Origin: Winogradskyella flava
GTDB lineage: Bacteria > Bacteroidota > Bacteroidia > Flavobacteriales > Flavobacteriaceae
Assembly: GCF_014243395.1 (NCBI RefSeq)
Contig: NZ_JACLCP010000003.1
Location: forward strand, 372,001 to 436,000
DNA: 64,000 nt
Direction of reading: 5' to 3'
The notes under the pieces were generated by a model. The model saw only the letters and a program-made list of their open reading frames with translations, was not told the origin of the DNA and did not search any database. This document shows, in pieces, positions 1 to 8,263 of the stretch (position 1 is the stretch's first letter; each line of letters opens with the position of its first letter). The position numbers and the translations under genes were made by a program.

Positions 1-1206
1 CTTTTCTAGCAATGCCATATAAAATCCATCAAAACCAGATTTATGTGCAAATATGCTTTTGTCTGTTACAAGAGTGAATTCTTTACCACTTTCCGAAGTT
101 AAAAATTTTTCTACTTGTTTTTCGTTTTCAGATGGTAAAATTGAGCAGGTTGCATAAACCATTTTTCCGCCTGGTTTTACCATTTTTGAATACTGTTGTA
201 ATACTTCAATTTGTATGTTCTTTATGTTTTCTATAAACTCCGGTTCTAATTTCCATTTGGCATCTGGATTTCGTCTTAAAACGCCTAAACCAGAACATGG
301 CGCATCGATTAATAAGCGATCTGCCTTGCCATGTAACTTTTTAATAGGTTTAGTCGAATCAATAACTTTCATTTCAATATTATGCACACCATTGCGACGT
401 GCTCTAATCTTGAGTTTCTTTAATTTACTTTCGTAAATATCCATGGCAATAACTTGACCCTTATTTTGCATTAATGCTGCCAAATGTAGTGTTTTACCAC
501 CTGCACCTGCACAAACATCTACAACTTTCATGCCTGGTTCTACATCCAAAAAGTCTGCAACCAATTGAGACGAGGCATCTTGGACTTCGAACCATCCATT
601 CTTAAAAGCTTCAGTTTTAAATACGTTGGCGCGTTCTTTTAATTTTAGAGCATAAGGATGATTGGGTAATATCTCAGTTTCAATTTCCTCGGACTGTAAT
701 TTAAGTTGAAGATCCTTTTTGTTAGTCTTAAGTGTGTTGACGCGCAAAATTACATCAGCTTGCTCATTTAGTTTGGTGATTTCTTGGGCCCAGAACTCTT
801 CTCCAAGCTCGGTAGTGCCAAGATTGTCCATCCAATCAGGTATGGATTCGCGATATTTTCTAATCTGGGACAATTCGTCAAAACGTCCTTTTATTTTTCG
901 AGAAGGTGTATCGGCAAAATACTTCCAATCTGGGAGTTTAATACCTTTCAATGTAGCCCAAACAGCAAATATTCGCCATAAATTATCTCTATCAAAAGGT
1001 GCCTTTACGTTAGCAATTTCTGCATACAAGCGTTTGTATCTTACAATCTCGTAAATAGTTTCAGCAACAAAACCTCTGTCACGACTTCCCCAGCGTTTAT
1101 CCCGTTTTAGTAATTGTTGCACGGCTTTATCTGCATACTCATTTTCGTTGAAGATTTTGTGTAATCCATCGATAACCGCAAAACATAAATTTCTGTGTAG
1201 TCGCAT
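1..1206 (-). CDS. RsmB-family rRNA cytosine-C5 methyltransferase, 3' end cut by the window edge
   Basis: The protein starts at the ATG at 1206 and is still open at base 1, so the last few residues are missing. It has the RsmB/NOP2/Sun methyltransferase layout: an N-terminal helical domain, then the SAM-binding fold with VCAGAGGKTLHLAAL, the PCSGLGVLRRNPD segment and ATCSILPSENEKQV, which carry the two family cysteines. Such enzymes make m5C in 16S rRNA using S-adenosylmethionine. The class is secure; the exact target base (C967 or another) cannot be told from sequence alone. It faces away from the ECF cluster and shares with it the 1207-1355 gap. Confidence 0.9.
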   Translation of the reverse strand, partial: MRLHRNLCFAVIDGLHKIFNENEYADKAVQQLLKRDKRWGSRDRGFVAETIYEIVRYKRLYAEIANVKAPFDRDNLWRIFAVWATLKGIKLPDWKYFADTPSRKIKGRFDELSQIRKYRESIPDWMDNLGTTELGEEFWAQEITKLNEQADVILRVNTLKTNKKDLQLKLQSEEIETEILPNHPYALKLKERANVFKTEAFKNGWFEVQDASSQLVADFLDVEPGMKVVDVCAGAGGKTLHLAALMQNKGQVIAMDIYESKLKKLKIRARRNGVHNIEMKVIDSTKPIKKLHGKADRLLIDAPCSGLGVLRRNPDAKWKLEPEFIENIKNIQIEVLQQYSKMVKPGGKMVYATCSILPSENEKQVEKFLTSESGKEFTLVTDKSIFAHKSGFDGFYMALLEK

Positions 1207-1298: not shown

Positions 1299-1331
1299 GC
1301 ACAAGTTTTAGTAAAAAAATGAATCTAAAGT
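1299..1331 (+). promoter_or_regulatory. Candidate ECF promoter A (autoregulatory, before the sigma factor)
   Basis: A -35-like GCACAAGTTT at 1299 is followed exactly 24 bases after its first base by a -10-like ATCTAAAG at 1323. The same two boxes at the same distance recur at 1934, 2863 and 3319. The predicted start of transcription is a few bases past 1331, leaving a short leader before the TTG start at 1356. Assignment to the sigma factor of this cluster is inference from position and recurrence. Confidence 0.75.
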
Positions 1332-1355
1332 TAATAACCATTATAACCTTGATTT

Positions 1356-1934
1356 TTGACAGAGGCTGAATTTATAAAGGAATTACAATCAAAAAGTACA
1401 GTCGCCTATAATAAGCTTGTGGACGACTTTCAGCAGAAAGTCTTTGGTACTTGCATGTCCTTTGTACCGAACATGGAAGATGCCGAAGATATAGCTCAGG
1501 ACGTTTTTATGGAGGTTTTTAACTCGATCTCAAAGTTTAAGGGAGAATCTAAGTTATCTACATGGATTTATAGAATAACAACCAATAAGTGTTTAGAGTT
1601 TATAAGGAAAAAGAATACTAAAAAGCGGTTTGCTTTCATGCAATCTATAACAGGTAATGCCATTCCGTTTGATAAGACCAATTACTTTACAGAAATAAAT
1701 CATCCAGGTGTATTGTTAGAGAACAAAGAGTTAAGTGCTACCTTATTTAAGGCCATTAATAGCTTACCAGAAAGTCAGGCTATGGTCTTTACATTACATA
1801 AAGTCGATGGTAAGACCTATCAAGAAATAGCAGATATTATTGACCGAAGCTTGTCATCTGTAGAATCCGTAATGTTCAGGGCAAAAAAGAATTTAAAAAA
1901 AATATTAGAACACTATTACAGAAACGACTTTTAG
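1356..1934 (+). CDS. ECF RNA polymerase sigma factor (sigma-70 family)
   Basis: The 192-residue protein has sigma region 2 (NMEDAEDIAQDVFMEVF, then KGESKLSTWIYRITTNKCLE) and region 4 (LPESQAMVFTLHKVDGKTYQEI with the helix-turn-helix ending SVESVMFRAKKNLKK). It should direct RNA polymerase to a small regulon. The start is a TTG at 1356: an in-frame TGA sits at 1350-1352 and no ATG precedes region 2. Its stop codon shares a base with the next promoter element. It heads a sigma, anti-sigma, sensor series like CnrH-CnrY-CnrX; the metal link is inference. The family call is very safe, the signal it answers is unknown. Confidence 0.95.
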   Translation: MTEAEFIKELQSKSTVAYNKLVDDFQQKVFGTCMSFVPNMEDAEDIAQDVFMEVFNSISKFKGESKLSTWIYRITTNKCLEFIRKKNTKKRFAFMQSITGNAIPFDKTNYFTEINHPGVLLENKELSATLFKAINSLPESQAMVFTLHKVDGKTYQEIADIIDRSLSSVESVMFRAKKNLKKILEHYYRNDF

Positions 1935-1966
1935 CACAAGTTTTTTGAAACTTATGCATCTAAATA
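1934..1966 (+). promoter_or_regulatory. Candidate ECF promoter B (before the anti-sigma-like gene)
   Basis: GCACAAGTTT at 1934 and ATCTAAATA at 1958 have the same 24-base offset as the element at 1299. The first G belongs to the sigma gene's TAG stop, so the promoter is wedged between sigma and anti-sigma. This would let the regulator and its inhibitor be made in different amounts. It also argues that translation of the next gene begins at the ATG at 1975 and not at the upstream TTG or ATGs that lie inside the promoter. Confidence 0.75.
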
Positions 1967-1974
1967 CAATGATT

Positions 1975-2295
1975 ATGGAAACGAATTCTAAAATAGAAAG
2001 TAAAGTAGAACAAACTCTATCTTCTGTTGATCATATCAACCCGGTGAATGCATCTCCATTTTTTAAGGAAAAAGTGATGCAGCAAATTAGAAATGCTGCT
2101 GAAGATAAGGGTGATGTGATTTTAACTTGGTTTACGCCAAAACTACAATTCGCTGCGTTAGTATGTGTTGTAGTTTTGAATGTAGTAGCATTAACAAAAA
2201 TCACGGAAAACAATTATGATGAAAATCTTAGTGACTTTGTGGAATCTAATGGACTAAGCACAAGTAACGAAACTTTAATATTAAGTGACTTATGA
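1975..2295 (+). CDS. Small membrane-anchored putative anti-sigma factor
   Basis: The 106-residue protein has a soluble N-terminal part with the stretch NPVNASPFFKEKVMQQI, which resembles the PxxYFxxxExKV motif common in Bacteroidetes anti-sigma-like proteins, then one hydrophobic segment (LQFAALVCVVVLNVVAL) and a short acidic outer tail. This one-helix build, directly after an ECF sigma gene, fits a CnrY/RseA-type anchor that holds the sigma factor at the inner membrane. The ATG at 1975 is preferred because earlier starts fall within promoter B. It overlaps the next gene by four bases (ATGA). No named family is recognised; the function is inferred from context. Confidence 0.75.
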   Translation: METNSKIESKVEQTLSSVDHINPVNASPFFKEKVMQQIRNAAEDKGDVILTWFTPKLQFAALVCVVVLNVVALTKITENNYDENLSDFVESNGLSTSNETLILSDL

Positions 2296-2804
2296 AAAAA
2301 AATCTACCATTATATATATTGATTCTTGTTCTTGCAGTAATGAACGGATTTTTCTTGTTCAACTATTTGGGACATAATGATGAAAAGCCAGATAGACGGA
2401 AAGAACGGAATAACTTTATGGCAAAGAAGATTGGTTTTAAAGGTAAACAGTTAGATAGCTTTAAGAATTTTGAAGAATTGCACCGTGAGAGAATGCGTTT
2501 AATGTCAGGAGATGTCAGAAAGTTGAAAGATGTTTTTTTCGATAAACTATCCGATGACGAGGTAAGTGATTCTTACATTGATTCCTTAACAAATCTCATA
2601 GCTATTAAAGAAATTGACATGGATAAAGAAGTCTTTTCTTATTTTAAAAATGTCCGTAATTTATGTGATGATGCCCAAAAGGAAAAATTTGATAAAATCG
2701 TTAAAGATGCTTTGCATCGTAGGGATAAAAAAGGTAAAAGACGTTCTAAAGGAGATGAGAGGAATGGCTCAGAGCCACCACCAACTCCTCATGAGAAAAG
2801 TTAA
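2292..2804 (+). CDS. Membrane-anchored Spy/CnrX-like periplasmic sensor protein
   Basis: A single N-terminal membrane helix (about residues 6-25) is followed by a helical, charged periplasmic domain of about 145 residues with KERNNFMAKKIGFKGKQLD and a FEELHRERMRLM helix, ending in a basic, low-complexity tail. Length, anchor and helix pattern match the heavy-metal-sensor proteins of the CnrX/ZraP/Spy group, which in CnrYXH bind metal outside and release the sigma factor inside. The coupling by a four-base overlap to the anti-sigma-like gene supports a joint role. No clear CnrX metal-ligand set can be read, so copper, nickel or a non-metal signal all stay possible. Confidence 0.7.
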   Translation: MKKNLPLYILILVLAVMNGFFLFNYLGHNDEKPDRRKERNNFMAKKIGFKGKQLDSFKNFEELHRERMRLMSGDVRKLKDVFFDKLSDDEVSDSYIDSLTNLIAIKEIDMDKEVFSYFKNVRNLCDDAQKEKFDKIVKDALHRRDKKGKRRSKGDERNGSEPPPTPHEKS

Positions 2805-2812
2805 ATTTTATT

Positions 2813-2840
2813 AAAGACCTCTTTGCAGAGGTCTTTTTTT
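2813..2840 (+). terminator. Rho-independent terminator after the sensor gene
   Basis: AAAGACCTCT (2813-2822) pairs perfectly with AGAGGTCTTT (2827-2836) over a four-base loop and runs into seven T residues. It ends the sigma/anti-sigma/sensor transcript, so the EF-hand gene needs its own promoter, which is found at 2863. Confidence 0.9.
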
Positions 2841-2862
2841 ATGCTTTTTTTAACAATGCAAG

Positions 2863-2895
2863 CCACAAGTTAGTAGGACCAAATTCATCTAAATA
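2863..2895 (+). promoter_or_regulatory. Candidate ECF promoter C (before the EF-hand gene)
   Basis: CCACAAGTTA at 2863 and ATCTAAATA at 2887 repeat the spacing of elements A, B and D. It lies just past the terminator at 2813-2840 and 23 bases before the ATG at 2918. Confidence 0.75.
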
Positions 2896-2917
2896 CATAT
2901 AATTTAAAACAAAAGAT

Positions 2918-3211
2918 ATGAGTATTAAATATTTTAAAACAGGTTTGATAGCGGGTGTATTTTCATTAGTGTTTATGTTGGGTGCAAATGCTCAAGAAAA
3001 TAAAGGTGAAAAGGGTAGAAAAGAGCGACCAACGTTTGCCCAGCTTTTGGAAGATATGGATGCTAATGAAGATGGTAAACTTTCTAAGGATGAAATAAAA
3101 GGAAGATTAAAAAATCGCTTTGATAAAATTGATTTAAACGAAGATGGGTTCATCACCGAGGAAGAATTTAAAAAAGCACCTAGACCAAAAGGTAGAAAAC
3201 GAGATAATTAA
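2918..3211 (+). CDS. Exported EF-hand calcium-binding-like protein
   Basis: This 97-residue protein has a signal peptide (about residues 1-25, ending GANAQ) and two EF-hand loops: DANEDGKLSKDE at residues 48-59 and DLNEDGFITEEE at 72-83, both with full acidic ligand positions. A basic C-terminus follows. It is expected in the periplasm or outside the cell and should bind Ca2+ or a similar ion. It is a single-gene unit between its own ECF-type promoter and a stem at 3223-3253. Its job in the regulon is unknown; buffering or sensing divalent ions is one idea. Confidence 0.85.
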   Translation: MSIKYFKTGLIAGVFSLVFMLGANAQENKGEKGRKERPTFAQLLEDMDANEDGKLSKDEIKGRLKNRFDKIDLNEDGFITEEEFKKAPRPKGRKRDN

Positions 3212-3318
3212 AAGTTTTAAAAATCAAAAATTTTGTTTCTAGAAATTTTTGATGATTGGTTGGTTGAAAAGGCTTTGTGAGAAATCATGAAGCTTTTTCT
3301 ATTTTAAAAACTAAATAA

Positions 3319-3351
3319 GCGCAAGTTTATTCTTTCCTGCGCATCTAAATA
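3319..3351 (+). promoter_or_regulatory. Candidate ECF promoter D (before the YHYH gene)
   Basis: GCGCAAGTTT at 3319 and ATCTAAATA at 3343 again keep the 24-base offset. It should drive the 3381-5446 series (YHYH, MORN, SCO1), which ends in the terminator at 5469. Confidence 0.75.
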
Positions 3352-3380: not shown

Positions 3381-4172
3381 ATGAAAAACCTTTTAAGACT
3401 TTTAGCAATAATAGTGTCCTTATTTGTAATGAGTATAGCATGTTCAAGCAGTGATGATAGTTCTTCTTCGGACGATATGGGGACTACAGATGACGATGGG
3501 TCATTGCCGACGGAATTACATGGAGCATTTGCAGATTTCGATACAGATTATACAGATATTTATTTAGACGGATCAGATGTTGTTATTGAAACCATTGGAG
3601 TACCAAACCATTTAACACCTTATTATAGTTCAGCACACCCGTTGTATGTAGAACCTACCATTACTAGTGAGGCGACCATGACACCAACAAGAATTGATAC
3701 TTCTGGGCGTGATTTTGAAGCATCCTTGACAGTATCGTCAAATCCAGAGGCTGCCAGTTCTACCAGCGCTACCCAATTAGGTGCAATAGGTATTGCGGTA
3801 AGTGGTGCCTTTATTTATAATGACCAAGAAGGTAATGGGCCATTGGATGGTGCTGCAGGTAGCTTAGATTATACAGGAGGACATATTGGCCCATCCAATT
3901 ATCATTATCATTTAGAACCATTAGCATTTACCAATGATGACGAAAACCTGGTAGGCATTATTTCAGATGGATTCTTTATTTATGGTAGAAAATGTAATTC
4001 TACTGGAACATATCCTACGGACTTGGATGCTTCTGGTGGTCATGCAAGCGTAACACAGCATACAACTGAAGAAGAGTATCACTACCACATTATTAATGAA
4101 GTTTATGGTTCACTTGGAAGATATTTAGTTTTTGCTGGACCTTATCAAGGCATACCGAATGCAATTAATTAA
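3381..4172 (+). CDS. YHYH-domain lipoprotein
   Basis: The 263-residue protein carries a lipoprotein signal with the lipobox cysteine near residue 21 (MSIACSSSDD), a Ser/Asp-rich linker typical of surface lipoproteins in this phylum, then the YHYH domain with NYHYHLEPL at about residues 173-181 and EYHYHIINEVYG at about 232-243. The paired His-x-His motifs look like metal ligands, although the family's activity is not established to my knowledge. It lies under promoter D and its end overlaps the next gene by 14 bases. Neighbouring SCO1 makes a copper link attractive but unproven. Confidence 0.88.
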   Translation: MKNLLRLLAIIVSLFVMSIACSSSDDSSSSDDMGTTDDDGSLPTELHGAFADFDTDYTDIYLDGSDVVIETIGVPNHLTPYYSSAHPLYVEPTITSEATMTPTRIDTSGRDFEASLTVSSNPEAASSTSATQLGAIGIAVSGAFIYNDQEGNGPLDGAAGSLDYTGGHIGPSNYHYHLEPLAFTNDDENLVGIISDGFFIYGRKCNSTGTYPTDLDASGGHASVTQHTTEEEYHYHIINEVYGSLGRYLVFAGPYQGIPNAIN

Positions 4173-4767
4173 ATATATATGTTTAATAGGTGTATTTGTT
4201 TTTGTTGTTAGCTGTACTAATGACTCAACTAATAATAAGAATATTGTTACAACAAAAGGAATACCAACTATTAATGTTGAAAAATCATATTTAAAATTGA
4301 ACCAGGTAAAAGGACAATGGTTTTATAAAGACCAACCTTTTAACGGATATGCGATTACATATCATGAGAATGATAGCTTAGCCGAAAAAACGGGTTTTAT
4401 AAATGGTAAAAGAGAAGGTATATCTTATGCGTATTATTCTAATGGTACTATAAAGAAAGAGGCTGCTTACAAAGAAAATAAACTACATGGATTAAAAACA
4501 AATTACTTTAGAAATGGTAAAATTGTTTCAGAATTCAACTATGAAAAAGGTAAGTTGCATGGTGTGCAAAAAACTTGGTTTCCTAATGGCCAATTAGCTA
4601 AGAAACGAAGTCTAAATCTTGGACAGGAGGAAGGTATACAACAAGCTTGGTTAGAGAATGGTAAGCTTTATGTGAATTACGAGGCTAAAAATGGACGTAT
4701 TTTCGGTATGCAGCGTGCAACTTCTTGTTATAAACTTGAAGATGAGGTTGTAATTAAAACCAATTGA
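4159..4767 (+). CDS. MORN-type repeat lipoprotein (YwqK-like)
   Basis: The start at ATG 4159 gives a lipoprotein signal (CLIGVFVFVVSCTND) and overlaps the YHYH gene's end. The body is a run of about six imperfect repeats of the form GxxxGxxxxYYxNGxxKxE, for example GISYAYYSNGTIKKEAAY and GLKTNYFRNGKIVSEFNY, which is the MORN-variant repeat found in proteins annotated as YwqK-type antitoxins. There is no toxin gene beside it, so that label should not be taken as a function; it is more likely a surface or periplasmic repeat protein. It is followed four bases later by SCO1. Confidence 0.8.
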   Translation: MQLIKYICLIGVFVFVVSCTNDSTNNKNIVTTKGIPTINVEKSYLKLNQVKGQWFYKDQPFNGYAITYHENDSLAEKTGFINGKREGISYAYYSNGTIKKEAAYKENKLHGLKTNYFRNGKIVSEFNYEKGKLHGVQKTWFPNGQLAKKRSLNLGQEEGIQQAWLENGKLYVNYEAKNGRIFGMQRATSCYKLEDEVVIKTN

Positions 4768-4771
4768 TTTT

Positions 4772-5446
4772 ATGAAGTATGTAGCTGTTTTTTTAGTATT
4801 TGTTTTCATTAGCTGTAAGCGAGAAGTAAAAGAAGACACCATTAAATCTGTTGAAACGAGTAGGGTTGATTATTTACCATATTATAACGACGAATCCTTT
4901 ACTCCAAATTGGTTAACACCTGGAACCAAAGAGGAAGAAAGGTTTCATAAAATAGGAAGTTTTACATTGATTAATCAATTGGGAGACACTATTACACAGC
5001 AAACATTTGAAAAAAAAATTTATATAACCGATTTCTTTTTTGCAAGTTGCCCTGGCATTTGTCCACAAATGACTGGCAATATGTTTAAGCTACAAGAAGA
5101 ATTCATAAATGATCAAGACGTATTATTTTTATCCCATTCGGTAACACCAACGAAAGACTCGGTTCCTGTACTTAAGAATTATGCAGAAAAAAATGGGGTT
5201 TTAGACGGTAAGTGGCACTTGGTAACAGGTGATAAATCAGAAATTTATAATTTGGGCAGAAACCACTATTTTGTTGAGAACGATCTTGGTAAGCCAAAAG
5301 ATATTAATGATTTCTTACATACTGAAAACTTCTTACTTATCGATAAGAAGAGTCATATTAGAGGTATTTACAATGGACTTAATAGAGCATCTATGCAACA
5401 ATTAATAGTCGATGTAAGAGCACTTCAAAAAGAGATTAAGATCTAA
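4772..5446 (+). CDS. SCO1/SenC-family copper chaperone or thiol-disulfide protein
   Basis: A 224-residue lipoprotein (FISCKRE, Cys about residue 15) with a thioredoxin-like fold. It has the SCO1 motif CPGICP (cysteines near residues 93 and 97) and the later His in DFLHTENFLL that completes the copper site. SCO proteins deliver Cu to the CuA centre of cytochrome oxidase or act as redox partners. It is the last gene of the promoter-D unit, before a terminator at 5469. No cytochrome oxidase genes are seen nearby, so a regulon-specific copper role is possible. Confidence 0.93.
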   Translation: MKYVAVFLVFVFISCKREVKEDTIKSVETSRVDYLPYYNDESFTPNWLTPGTKEEERFHKIGSFTLINQLGDTITQQTFEKKIYITDFFFASCPGICPQMTGNMFKLQEEFINDQDVLFLSHSVTPTKDSVPVLKNYAEKNGVLDGKWHLVTGDKSEIYNLGRNHYFVENDLGKPKDINDFLHTENFLLIDKKSHIRGIYNGLNRASMQQLIVDVRALQKEIKI

Positions 5447-5468
5447 TTATTGATTATTGTTAATTTGA

Positions 5469-5510
5469 AGAGCTTTATGGTTTTATATCATAAAGCTTTT
5501 CTATTTTTAG
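5469..5510 (+). terminator. Terminator-like hairpin after SCO1
   Basis: AGCTTTATG (5471-5479) pairs with CATAAAGCT (5489-5497) and is followed by TTTCTATTTTT. It separates the ECF-regulon series from the lipoprotein gene at 5525. Confidence 0.75.
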
Positions 5511-6638: not shown

Positions 6639-7094
6639 TCAATTTTTGTTAGCGCGACGTTGTCGCATTTCTCTGAGGCGTTCCAATAGTTTTTTATTAA
6701 ACTGGTCTTCTGCAATTTTTAATTTTATAATTTTTTTGGCCGAAATGACTTTCTTCAAGTCCTTGACCAATTGAAGTTTTGCTTCATGCATATCACTTTC
6801 AGCTTCCATTAACTTTTCTAATATATCATTGGCTTTCTCATCTGAAATCCCCTCTCCAGCTTTACGCATTTCCATTTTTAGGGTTCCTAGGTCGTCTGAC
6901 TTAATTTTTTCTATTTTGGCTTCGTATGTATTGTATATAGGCCAAAACTGTTGAGCTTCGTCAGAAGTAAGACTTAGTTTTTCAGTGATGAATGCTATCT
7001 TTTGTGCTTTGATGCGTTCTTTCATTTTTGCGCCTCCTTGAGCAAAAGCAGAAAGGCTTACAAATAAAATGAGTATGGGTAATATTTTTTTCAT
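6639..7094 (-). CDS. Spy/CpxP-like periplasmic protein of the second ECF module
   Basis: A 151-residue protein with a signal peptide (MKKILPILILFVSLSAFAQ) and a fully helical, charged body. It has the LTSDEAQQFWPIYNTYE segment, typical of Bacteroidetes proteins annotated as sensors of ECF-type sigma factors, and ends with a basic helix RLREMRQRRANKN. It resembles Spy/CpxP chaperone-sensors. It lies six bases after the anti-sigma-like gene, giving the order sigma, anti-sigma, Spy that also occurs at 1356-2804. Unlike the 2292 protein it seems to be released by signal peptidase and not anchored. Confidence 0.82.
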   Translation of the reverse strand: MKKILPILILFVSLSAFAQGGAKMKERIKAQKIAFITEKLSLTSDEAQQFWPIYNTYEAKIEKIKSDDLGTLKMEMRKAGEGISDEKANDILEKLMEAESDMHEAKLQLVKDLKKVISAKKIIKLKIAEDQFNKKLLERLREMRQRRANKN

Positions 7095-7100
7095 GTTGTC

Positions 7101-7601
7101 TTATTCTAAATAGGTTTCTATATCTGCATTATCAAGAAGATAATCTTCAAGGTTCTCTTCTTCGTAAGGGGTTGTTATAATTGTAAAATCTTCTTCCAGT
7201 AAATTGGCGTCAGAAAGTAGTTCTGCTAATTCATAACTATCCAAGTTTCTATTTTCAAGATACGTTTCAACCATTTCTACGGAAATATCTTCACTTGTAT
7301 TTTTATTTATAAATATAGCTAGTAATAACATAATTGACGCAGCAAGACCAGCTATGTAGTAGAGTGTTTTTCTAGAACGTAATTGTACAACAGGAGTGTA
7401 TTTGTCATTAAGCTTACTAAACACCTTATCTTCAATTGTATCAAAATAGTCATCAGGAACTCTAAAACCCTCATCTTGAATACCACCTACAGATTCTTTT
7501 TCGGACAAACGTGTAAATATTTTATCCTCGACCACTTCGAAATAATTATCTGGTGTTTTATAACCAGTCGATTTAATATTATGTAATTTATCTTTTTTCA
7601 T
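7101..7601 (-). CDS. Membrane protein, putative anti-sigma factor with duplicated N-terminal motif
   Basis: The 166-residue protein has two copies of one motif in its cytoplasmic half, GYKTPDNYFEVVEDKIFTRL (about residues 13-32) and GFRVPDDYFDTIEDKVFSKL (about 45-64), then one membrane helix (YYIAGLAASIMLLLAIFI) and a very acidic outer tail. Placement directly after an ECF sigma gene and before a Spy-like gene supports an anti-sigma role. Both motif copies could be sigma-contacting helices. No named family is recognised with certainty. Confidence 0.72.
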   Translation of the reverse strand: MKKDKLHNIKSTGYKTPDNYFEVVEDKIFTRLSEKESVGGIQDEGFRVPDDYFDTIEDKVFSKLNDKYTPVVQLRSRKTLYYIAGLAASIMLLLAIFINKNTSEDISVEMVETYLENRNLDSYELAELLSDANLLEEDFTIITTPYEEENLEDYLLDNADIETYLE

Positions 7602-7673
7602 CTTTTTTCCTTAAACAAGGAATACTTTTTTATTTCAAGTTACACATATTTGACTTTAAATTACCAAAATGGT

Positions 7674-8216
7674 TTAATCTGAGGTCAGAAAGGATTCTAT
7701 TTTTTTCACTGCAATGTGATAGGATGCCTTTAGAGCACCTTCACTCGTCTCTAATATATCCGCGATTTCCTTATACTTTAGATCATCAAAATATTTCATA
7801 TTAAAAACCAATTGTTGTTTTTGCGGTAGCGTTGCAATGGCTTTTTGTAATTTTAATTGAATCTCATCCCCTTCGAAATAAACATCAGCTGCTAAATTAT
7901 TAATCGCTGTATTTTGATGCTCTTCGTTTGAAATTTGAAGGCGCTTAGCATTTTTATTAATAAGTGTGATGGATTCATTAGTGGCAATACGATACAACCA
8001 AGAGTATAATTTACTTTCTCCTTTAAATTTATCGATGCTACGAAACACTTTTATAAAGGTGTTTTGTAATACGTCATCTGCATCATCGTGAGAAATCACA
8101 ATTTTACGTATATGCCAATACAAACGTTCCTTGTAGAACTGCATAAGTTCTCTAAAGGCTGTTTCCTTTGAAGTAGGATTTTGTAAACGTTTTATAAATT
8201 CGGTTTCGTCGACCAA
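7674..8216 (-). CDS. ECF RNA polymerase sigma factor (second module)
   Basis: The 180-residue protein shows sigma region 2 (SHDDADDVLQNTFIKVF, KGESKLYSWLYRIATNESIT) and region 4 (ATLPQKQQLVFNMKYFDDL, YKEIADILETSEGALKASYH). It is clearly related to the 1356 sigma factor, including the N-terminal pattern EFIK-LQ. The start is TTG at 8216, since there is no ATG upstream of region 2. It heads a minus-strand series with the anti-sigma-like and Spy-like genes. A possible promoter with the same -10 sequence as the first module lies at 8231-8263. Confidence 0.95.
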   Translation of the reverse strand: MVDETEFIKRLQNPTSKETAFRELMQFYKERLYWHIRKIVISHDDADDVLQNTFIKVFRSIDKFKGESKLYSWLYRIATNESITLINKNAKRLQISNEEHQNTAINNLAADVYFEGDEIQLKLQKAIATLPQKQQLVFNMKYFDDLKYKEIADILETSEGALKASYHIAVKKIESFLTSD

Positions 8217-8230
8217 GTCAATTACTTTAG

Positions 8231-8263
8231 TATTTAGACTTCATAATTTACTAAAAGTTTAAT
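8231..8263 (-). promoter_or_regulatory. Possible ECF promoter of the second sigma gene
   Basis: On the minus strand ATTAAACTTT (from 8263) is followed, 24 bases from its first base, by GTCTAAATA (from 8239). The -10 box shares TCTAAATA with the first module's promoters and the spacing is equal, while the -35 box differs. A single example, so only tentative. Confidence 0.4.

Follow-up and report, generated by a model that had tools for sequence, protein, structure and literature searches.

The 64,000-nucleotide (nt) window analyzed here, positions 372,001–436,000 (forward strand) of contig NZ_JACLCP010000003.1 from Winogradskyella flava (GCF_014243395.1), contains a locus for an extracytoplasmic function (ECF) sigma factor whose genes are preceded by four copies, P1 to P4, of a putative two-box promoter with fixed spacing. 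The locus reads along the plus strand. P1 (1299–1329; GCACAAGTTT / ATCTAAA) ends 26 nt before the start of the sigma gene (1356–1934), and P2 (1934–1964) overlaps the sigma stop codon, ending 10 nt before the conserved start of a gene for a short, putative one-helix membrane anti-sigma factor (1975–2295). The following gene (2292–2804) encodes a membrane-anchored Spy/CnrX-like protein, the presumed sensor, and an intrinsic-terminator-like hairpin (2813–2836; −12.9 kcal/mol, z −5.5) closes this two-gene unit. P3 (2863–2893) lies 24 nt before the gene of a secreted protein with two EF-hands (2918–3211; Pfam EF-hand_5, 1.7e-10), which is followed by a terminator-like hairpin (3266–3299). P4 (3319–3349) lies 31 nt before a YHYH lipoprotein gene (3381–4172; Pfam YHYH, 3.6e-11), followed by genes for a MORN-repeat lipoprotein (4159–4767; Pfam MORN_2, 6.9e-15) and a SCO1/SenC protein (4772–5446; Pfam SCO1-SenC, 5.4e-23) and by a further terminator-like hairpin (5467–5501). 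A fourth listed hairpin (3788–3810) falls within the YHYH gene.

The sigma factor of about 190 residues contains both sigma-70 region 2 (Pfam Sigma70_r2, 7.4e-17) and region 4 (r4_2, 2e-14), the combination expected of group IV ECF proteins, and its closest solved relative by sequence is E. coli sigma-E (3.6e-25). Its TTG start codon is shared by 71 of 74 orthologs (six others, whose matches begin after residue 1, were left out) and may keep the sigma factor scarcer than the anti-sigma factor. The latter was assigned from its gene position, its size and the single membrane helix seen in its sequence; it belongs to a conserved family with no significant Pfam match (best DUF2275 at 0.032, under the cut-off). 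Among 33 relatives measured, its start codon lies 5–11 nt past the −10 box in 25 and 18–33 nt past it in the other eight, so the leader would be very short in the former, should transcription begin some 6 nt beyond it. Leaderless mRNAs make up 5.5% in Flavobacterium psychrophilum, according to the available part of PMC9723704.

Exactness and conservation of the two-box sites

The first-pass annotation had described four box pairs in front of these genes, in each of which ATCTAAA starts 24 bases downstream of where the 10-mer starts. The coordinates and the spacing were reproduced by our window check, and the identity of the downstream genes was borne out by Pfam for the sigma, EF-hand and YHYH genes; the anti-sigma gene is a putative one, assigned as above. 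The exact form CAAGTT-N15-ATCTAAA occurs at 1302–1329, 1937–1964, 2866–2893 and 3322–3349, four matches against 0.01 expected, and none of 100 shuffles reached this number. A looser search with CACAAGTT-N15-ATCTAAA and three mismatches returned seven matches in the window against 5.8 expected, which is chance level; the signal thus resides in near-exact matches. A weight matrix was also derived from 75 sites in the sigma/anti-sigma gap of other genomes, with the window excluded. Its four best scores in the window fall on these sites (38.0, 26.0, 21.5 and 8.9), and the next match reaches 0.9.

The two-box search was also extended to the whole genome (3.85 Mb, 10 contigs), as the first-pass annotation had proposed. 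Four of its five exact matches are the window sites, and the fifth (C1:54574) was rejected as a regulon member as it lacks the flanking consensus and has no matrix score. With one mismatch allowed, the genome gave 28 matches and the backward control 24, which is near background, so that such a search cannot single out regulon members.

We then compared the loci of sigma orthologs, using the best 80 of 148 relatives (mainly Flavobacteriaceae and a few other Bacteroidota), defining a site as CAAGTT-N15-ATCTAAA with at most one mismatch and taking the backward motif as control. On the sigma strand, these loci contain 236 sites, of which 177 are exact and 59 have one mismatch; the opposite strand has two, and the control gave seven matches over both strands, none of them exact. 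Spacings of 14 or 16 added seven exact sites, five on the sigma strand, with no control match. The boxes are kept across genera while the spacers differ, and the wider consensus of the 236 sites reads approximately AGCRCAAGTTTTT-N10-GCATCTAAA, with C preceding ATCTAAA in 99%. P2, P3 and P4 have CATC as the −10 form, and P1 has AATC.

The sites recur in front of similar genes. All of the 80 loci except L102, L104, L107 and L108 (thus 76) have a site in the gap that separates the sigma from the anti-sigma gene, and 40 have one in the 200 nt that precede sigma. Tallied per gene cluster, for plus-strand genes and 250 nt upstream, a site precedes 74 of 75 anti-sigma genes, 32 of 35 short and 11 of 14 larger EF-hand genes, 42 of 75 members of the YHYH cluster and 10 of 29 of the CotH cluster. 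No MORN (0/38) or SCO1 gene (0/36) and no member of one unassigned cluster (0/15) has a site of its own within this distance; the MORN and SCO1 genes probably lie inside the YHYH unit and share its transcript, also in the window. Furthermore, Pfam checks of single representatives confirmed CotH, VTC and di-haem peroxidase domains downstream of sites.

Distribution across genomes and targets away from the locus

Motif and sensor were scanned for in three genome sets, covering the genus (n = 68), the family (n = 149) and a sample of the phylum (n = 296). Of the genus genomes, 38 contain CRCAAGTT-N14-CATCTAAA, an extended form of the motif, with no backward-control match, and 39 match the sensor profile (E ≤ 1e-3); 37 of the latter carry the motif. 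The two sensor-positive genomes without it have weak matches (about 6e-4) within frames of about 700 residues. In the sole genome with the motif and no sensor match (G181), the site coordinates are those of L040, a locus whose contig breaks off some 50 nt after the sensor gene begins. In the family, the motif is found in 18 genomes and the sensor in 30; all 18 are sensor-positive, the control gave no match, and none of the 119 sensor-negative genomes has the motif. Sensor matches in the motif genomes reach E ≤ 8.4e-46, a cut seen afterwards; Fisher tests of co-occurrence used this strong-sensor grouping and ignore shared descent. A looser pattern places 48 of 57 matches, from 21 sensor genomes, within 10 kb of the sensor. 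In the phylum sample, 133 genomes match the sensor profile and the exact motif occurs in the genome of the window only; the pattern search gave one backward-control match (G227). Outside the clade of this genome, the sensor family accompanies other −10 forms, or none was seen.

Some matches lie away from the sigma locus. Twenty genus matches either share no contig with the sensor or lie more than 100 kb from it. One of these, an apparent YHYH target (L208), was rejected, as it is the sigma locus continued on another contig, with YHYH followed by MORN and the neighboring ECF system present. For 13 of the other 19, the downstream gene belongs to a single secreted-protein family, traced by tblastn with L207 (L198–L217 set), in which all five members checked with Pfam carry the CHU_C type IX sorting domain, and the remainder precede a YHYH gene (L202), a di-haem peroxidase gene (L214), one Porph_ging and one Lcl_C gene and two unassigned genes (L205, L209). 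From eight such matches in other genera, three (L165, L166 and L167) were dropped as they had no matrix score, which left a YHYH gene (L160), two sulfatase genes (L161, L163), a PAP2-type gene (L162) and a di-haem peroxidase gene (L164). The products of these distant targets are exported. The recurrence of two YHYH and two peroxidase genes away from the locus argues for a real regulon. The regulon had been called compact, which is apt for the genome of the window, but not for relatives with these additional distant targets. At L160 (666–3165), the target YHYH gene is followed by genes for an ArsR-type regulator and an SBF-family transporter, a neighborhood that hints at a possible link to arsenic.

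Because of this conservation and co-occurrence, we read P1–P4 as a promoter set, very probably recognized by the product of the ECF sigma gene at 1356. In all indirect tests the sites behave as promoters would, and the earlier proposal of a shared ECF-type promoter tied to the sigma gene gains strong support from their conservation, their co-occurrence with the sensor and their recurrence before similar genes. Dependence on the sigma factor, its binding by the anti-sigma factor and the direction of sensing are inferred.

Several observations weigh against this interpretation. P1 has A at the nearly invariant base before ATCTAAA, and 40 of the 80 loci have no site (at most one mismatch, spacing 15) before sigma. 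In the family, 12 of the 30 sensor-positive genomes do not have the exact motif; nine of these have weak sensor matches (E ≥ 1e-8), and the others are G076, G122 and G086, the last of which (sensor 7.5e-39) carries a near form, CGCAAGGTTTTG...CATCTAAA, at L284. The motif is likewise missing from the 132 other sensor-positive genomes of the phylum sample. Related genomes, moreover, share descent, and the counts are not independent. Given the variant base of P1 and the 40 loci without a site before sigma, autoregulation of sigma appears less universal than that of the anti-sigma gene. Self-control of the system, as suggested earlier, would follow if the sigma factor recognizes the sites as predicted; they lie before sigma in half of the loci and before anti-sigma in nearly all.

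A separate DNA-binding regulator, encoded elsewhere, might bind the boxes in place of the sigma factor. Some sites do lie far from the sigma locus, and contact between sigma and site is predicted here, but we regard such a regulator as very unlikely: the sites end 5–33 nt before anti-sigma start codons, the second box occupies the ECF −10 position and is CGTC-like in distant relatives (see below), and motif and sigma locus are gained and lost together.

The neighboring ECF system and the reading of promoter bases

A second ECF sigma gene lies in the same window on the minus strand (7674–8216; assigned by Pfam). Its putative promoter, AAACTT-N15-GTCTAAA (8233–8260, minus strand), is the only window match with at most one mismatch; as 0.49 are expected by chance, it is significant only through its conservation upstream of orthologs. 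TTAAAC with a GTC −10 element is present upstream in 29 of the 30 neighbor loci read (window included; L272 is cut by the contig start), and the strict pattern in 16 of the 30. Compared with P1–P4, this promoter has equal spacing and differs in three bases, those at −34 and −31 and the one that opens the −10 box. The layout of the second system mirrors the first, with the ECF gene followed by genes for a membrane protein without a Pfam match and an LTXXQ-like protein (0.0044, below the Pfam cut-off; 6639–8216, minus strand).

The similarity of the two promoters raises the possibility that P1–P4 are read by another sigma factor, such as this neighbor. We consider this highly improbable, since the differences fall on three key bases, the TTAAAC/GTC form is kept in nearly all orthologs read, and the neighbor is present in 39 of 41 genus genomes, whereas CAAGTT/CATC follows the sensor locus; G159, G161 and G162 have the neighboring ECF gene and no CAAGTT/CATC motif. 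Chance or a copied repeat, which an AT-rich genome might favor, was rejected on the window statistics (0.01 expected), the conservation in 80 loci of boxes whose spacers differ across genera, and the co-occurrence in genus and family, and its probability is negligible.

Attribution of P1–P4 to the sigma factor at 1356 raises the question of how their bases are read. R171 of E. coli sigma-E forms a hydrogen bond with the template G that faces C-31 of GGAACTT (PMC6713349, available part). R171 aligns with Glu170 of the sigma factor in the window, Glu is found in 80 of 81 sequences, and the corresponding −35 base is G; the neighboring ECF protein carries Lys where −31 would be read. For the −10 box, the comparison is with M. 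tuberculosis sigma-H, whose N92 contacts the first pair at its template base, as described in the accessible portion of PMC6411747. The equivalent of N92, counted from the shared Trp, Ile and Asn, is residue 81, which is Glu in 77 of 81 sequences. The canonical AAC of the −35 box is absent from the four sites, which have CAAG, and so is the canonical CGT(C) of the −10 box.

The first-pass annotation had called the boxes unlike GAAC/CGTC, which is true of the window and has to be qualified for more distant relatives. We scored the regions of putative self-promoters beside distant sensor loci with the −31 and the variable −10 columns masked. After three of 92 loci were dropped for want of a sigma gene, 89 loci with 176 regions remained, in an uneven sample that includes near-copies (L223–L226, L229) and in which family f17 is heavily represented. 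At a 2% shuffle threshold, at which three or four passes are expected by chance, 48 of the 176 regions passed, representing 41 loci. The masked −31 base is G in 47 of the 48 sites; among the 47 sites that go with Glu170 it is G in 46, and the residue is unread for the forty-eighth. At the position of the A in CATC, 41 of the 48 have G, mostly as CGTC or CGCC; CATC therefore looks like a lineage variant of CGTC.

Residue 81 and this base pair as Asp-G in 37 of the distant sites, Asn-G in four, Glu-A in three, Asp-T in two, and Asp-A and Asp-C in one each. The Glu81 state requires six changes on the tree, at least three of them forced by well-supported branches. A locus with Glu81 that scored below the threshold (L241) reads CATC. 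Locus L105 combines Asp81 with CATC, contrary to a residue code. In a distant clade checked for Glu81 with CATC (L292, L294, L296, L297, L299 and L300), no site was seen. The pairing is thus best described as a correlation, seen in aligned sequences, with few independent Glu events. Tentatively, and with the balance slightly against it, one may propose a two-residue code by which the promoters of an ECF family spanning the phylum have been rewired: Glu170 goes with G-31, and the −10 base following C depends on residue 81, being G with Asp or Asn (CGTC) and A with Glu (CATC), so that two adjacent ECF/CpxP-like modules in one window would be kept apart by three bases (CAAGTT/ATCTAAA and AAACTT/GTCTAAA). 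If this were true, one or two substitutions might swap sigma specificity, and the adjacent pair makes the question directly testable. G at the −31-type position has a precedent in the −35 consensus of Caulobacter SigV, GGAAG/CC, which also permits it (PMC13171946, available part).

The sensor and the proposed circuit

The sensor was modeled from a 39-row alignment (pLDDT 86.2). Foldseek placed CnrX/NccX structures at ranks 1–15, all with probability 1.00, with a best E of 0.012 and none below 0.001; by rank, the fold is of the CnrX type. VIA ranked ZraP first (Z 11.1) and CnrX rows at 10.2–10.8, with unrelated helical chains at up to 10.4, and alone is therefore not specific. By sequence profile, Spy comes first among solved relatives (9.9e-6), with NccX at 0.024, and 25 of the 39 sensor family members match the LTXXQ family at E ≤ 1 (best 1.9e-6; the window protein at 0.07, under the Pfam cut-off). 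The model and the profile suggest a sensor of the CnrX/Spy type.

Conserved residues of the sensor are Gln53 and Gln129 (39/39), His64 (37/39) and Cys125 (35/39). Those that we take to be the metal ligands of CnrX (H42, H46, E63, H119 and M123) are mostly not kept: with a gapless offset of 2, the alignment has His at 44 in 0 of 39, Glu at 61 in nine (the window protein among them), His at 117 in 21 (Tyr in the window) and Met at 121 in one, and the H42 equivalent is unaligned. A CnrX-type metal site was therefore rejected, and nickel or cobalt is not supported as the signal. As to the inducer, we would guess first at a divalent metal or at a cue from envelope folding. Sensing of misfolded envelope protein in the manner of Spy/CpxP, rather than of metal, is a serious candidate at somewhat less than even odds: the Spy profile match and the loss of the presumed CnrX ligands speak for it, whereas the fold search puts CnrX/NccX first, the conserved His64 and Cys125 could bind metal, and EF-hand proteins and a SCO1 gene are among the targets. 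EF-hand proteins are frequent among these targets, and calcium shortage has been proposed as the signal for the Caulobacter EF-hand protein CaBP, whose gene is under the adjacent ECF factor SigV and induced by EGTA (PMC13171946, available part). We consider this signal unlikely here, as the link from calcium to sigma is open in Caulobacter too and the sensor has no identified calcium site.

In the circuit that we propose from these predictions, the short membrane anti-sigma factor would hold the sigma factor in the resting state and let it go once the CnrX/Spy-like sensor relays a periplasmic cue. Free sigma would activate its own gene via P1, a positive loop, and the anti-sigma/sensor pair via P2, replenishing both and adding negative feedback. 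Via P3 and P4 it would activate the secreted EF-hand gene and the YHYH-MORN-SCO1 unit, and the secreted output of the regulon would include EF-hand, YHYH and CotH proteins among others.

The arrangement resembles CnrYXH of Cupriavidus metallidurans, which responds to nickel and cobalt, in combining an ECF sigma factor, a short membrane anti-sigma factor and a membrane-anchored sensor of the CnrX/NccX fold. Between CnrY, of class II, and the anti-sigma factor here, the similarity is limited to size and a single helix, and CnrY was absent from the Protein Data Bank sequence matches of the latter up to E 10. The systems differ in that the sigma factor here is nearer to E. coli sigma-E than to CnrH (1.8e-5), that the presumed CnrX ligand positions are mostly not kept, that no nickel/cobalt efflux gene was recognized among the annotated targets, and that the sigma gene comes first here, unlike in what we take to be the cnr gene order. 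E. coli sigma-E and B. subtilis SigW share the A-tract −35 element and a comparable frame, with GGAACTT (PMC6713349, available part) against CCAAGTT-like sequences here, and differ by C-31, which is G here, and by the replacement of R171. SM6 of F. psychrophilum is likewise an ECF-type promoter in Flavobacteriaceae, but has a CGT −10 box and targets of the type IX secretion system (T9SS) in the available text of PMC9723704, compared with CATCTAAA here. Caulobacter SigV-CaBP also places a secreted EF-hand protein under an adjacent ECF factor; its promoter is otherwise distinct, and its authors leave open a membrane link, possibly an anti-sigma factor (PMC13171946, available part).

Among the titles and abstract openings listed, our literature search found no account of the CAAGTT/ATCTAAA motif, and a published logo for this ECF group may exist; the available parts of PMC7406223, PMC12596196, PMC8103513 and PMC3817407 do not mention it. 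Nor did it find work linking YHYH with EF-hand proteins and a sigma factor, or CotH with VTC and DUF4956, and none of the papers listed on YHYH and CotH in flavobacteria was relevant. ECF promoters of Bacteroidota have been little mapped, and a sharp, searchable matrix is now available for one conserved ECF group, together with a defined set of exported targets (EF-hand, YHYH, CotH and T9SS-sorted proteins) and a natural adjacent ECF pair, with promoters three bases apart, as candidate non-crossreacting switches.

On its other side, the sigma gene is flanked by a divergent gene for an RsmB/F-type rRNA methyltransferase (1–1206, minus strand). Relatives carry a minus-strand gene cluster of 54, with an identical N-terminus, at the position of this RsmB/F-type methyltransferase.

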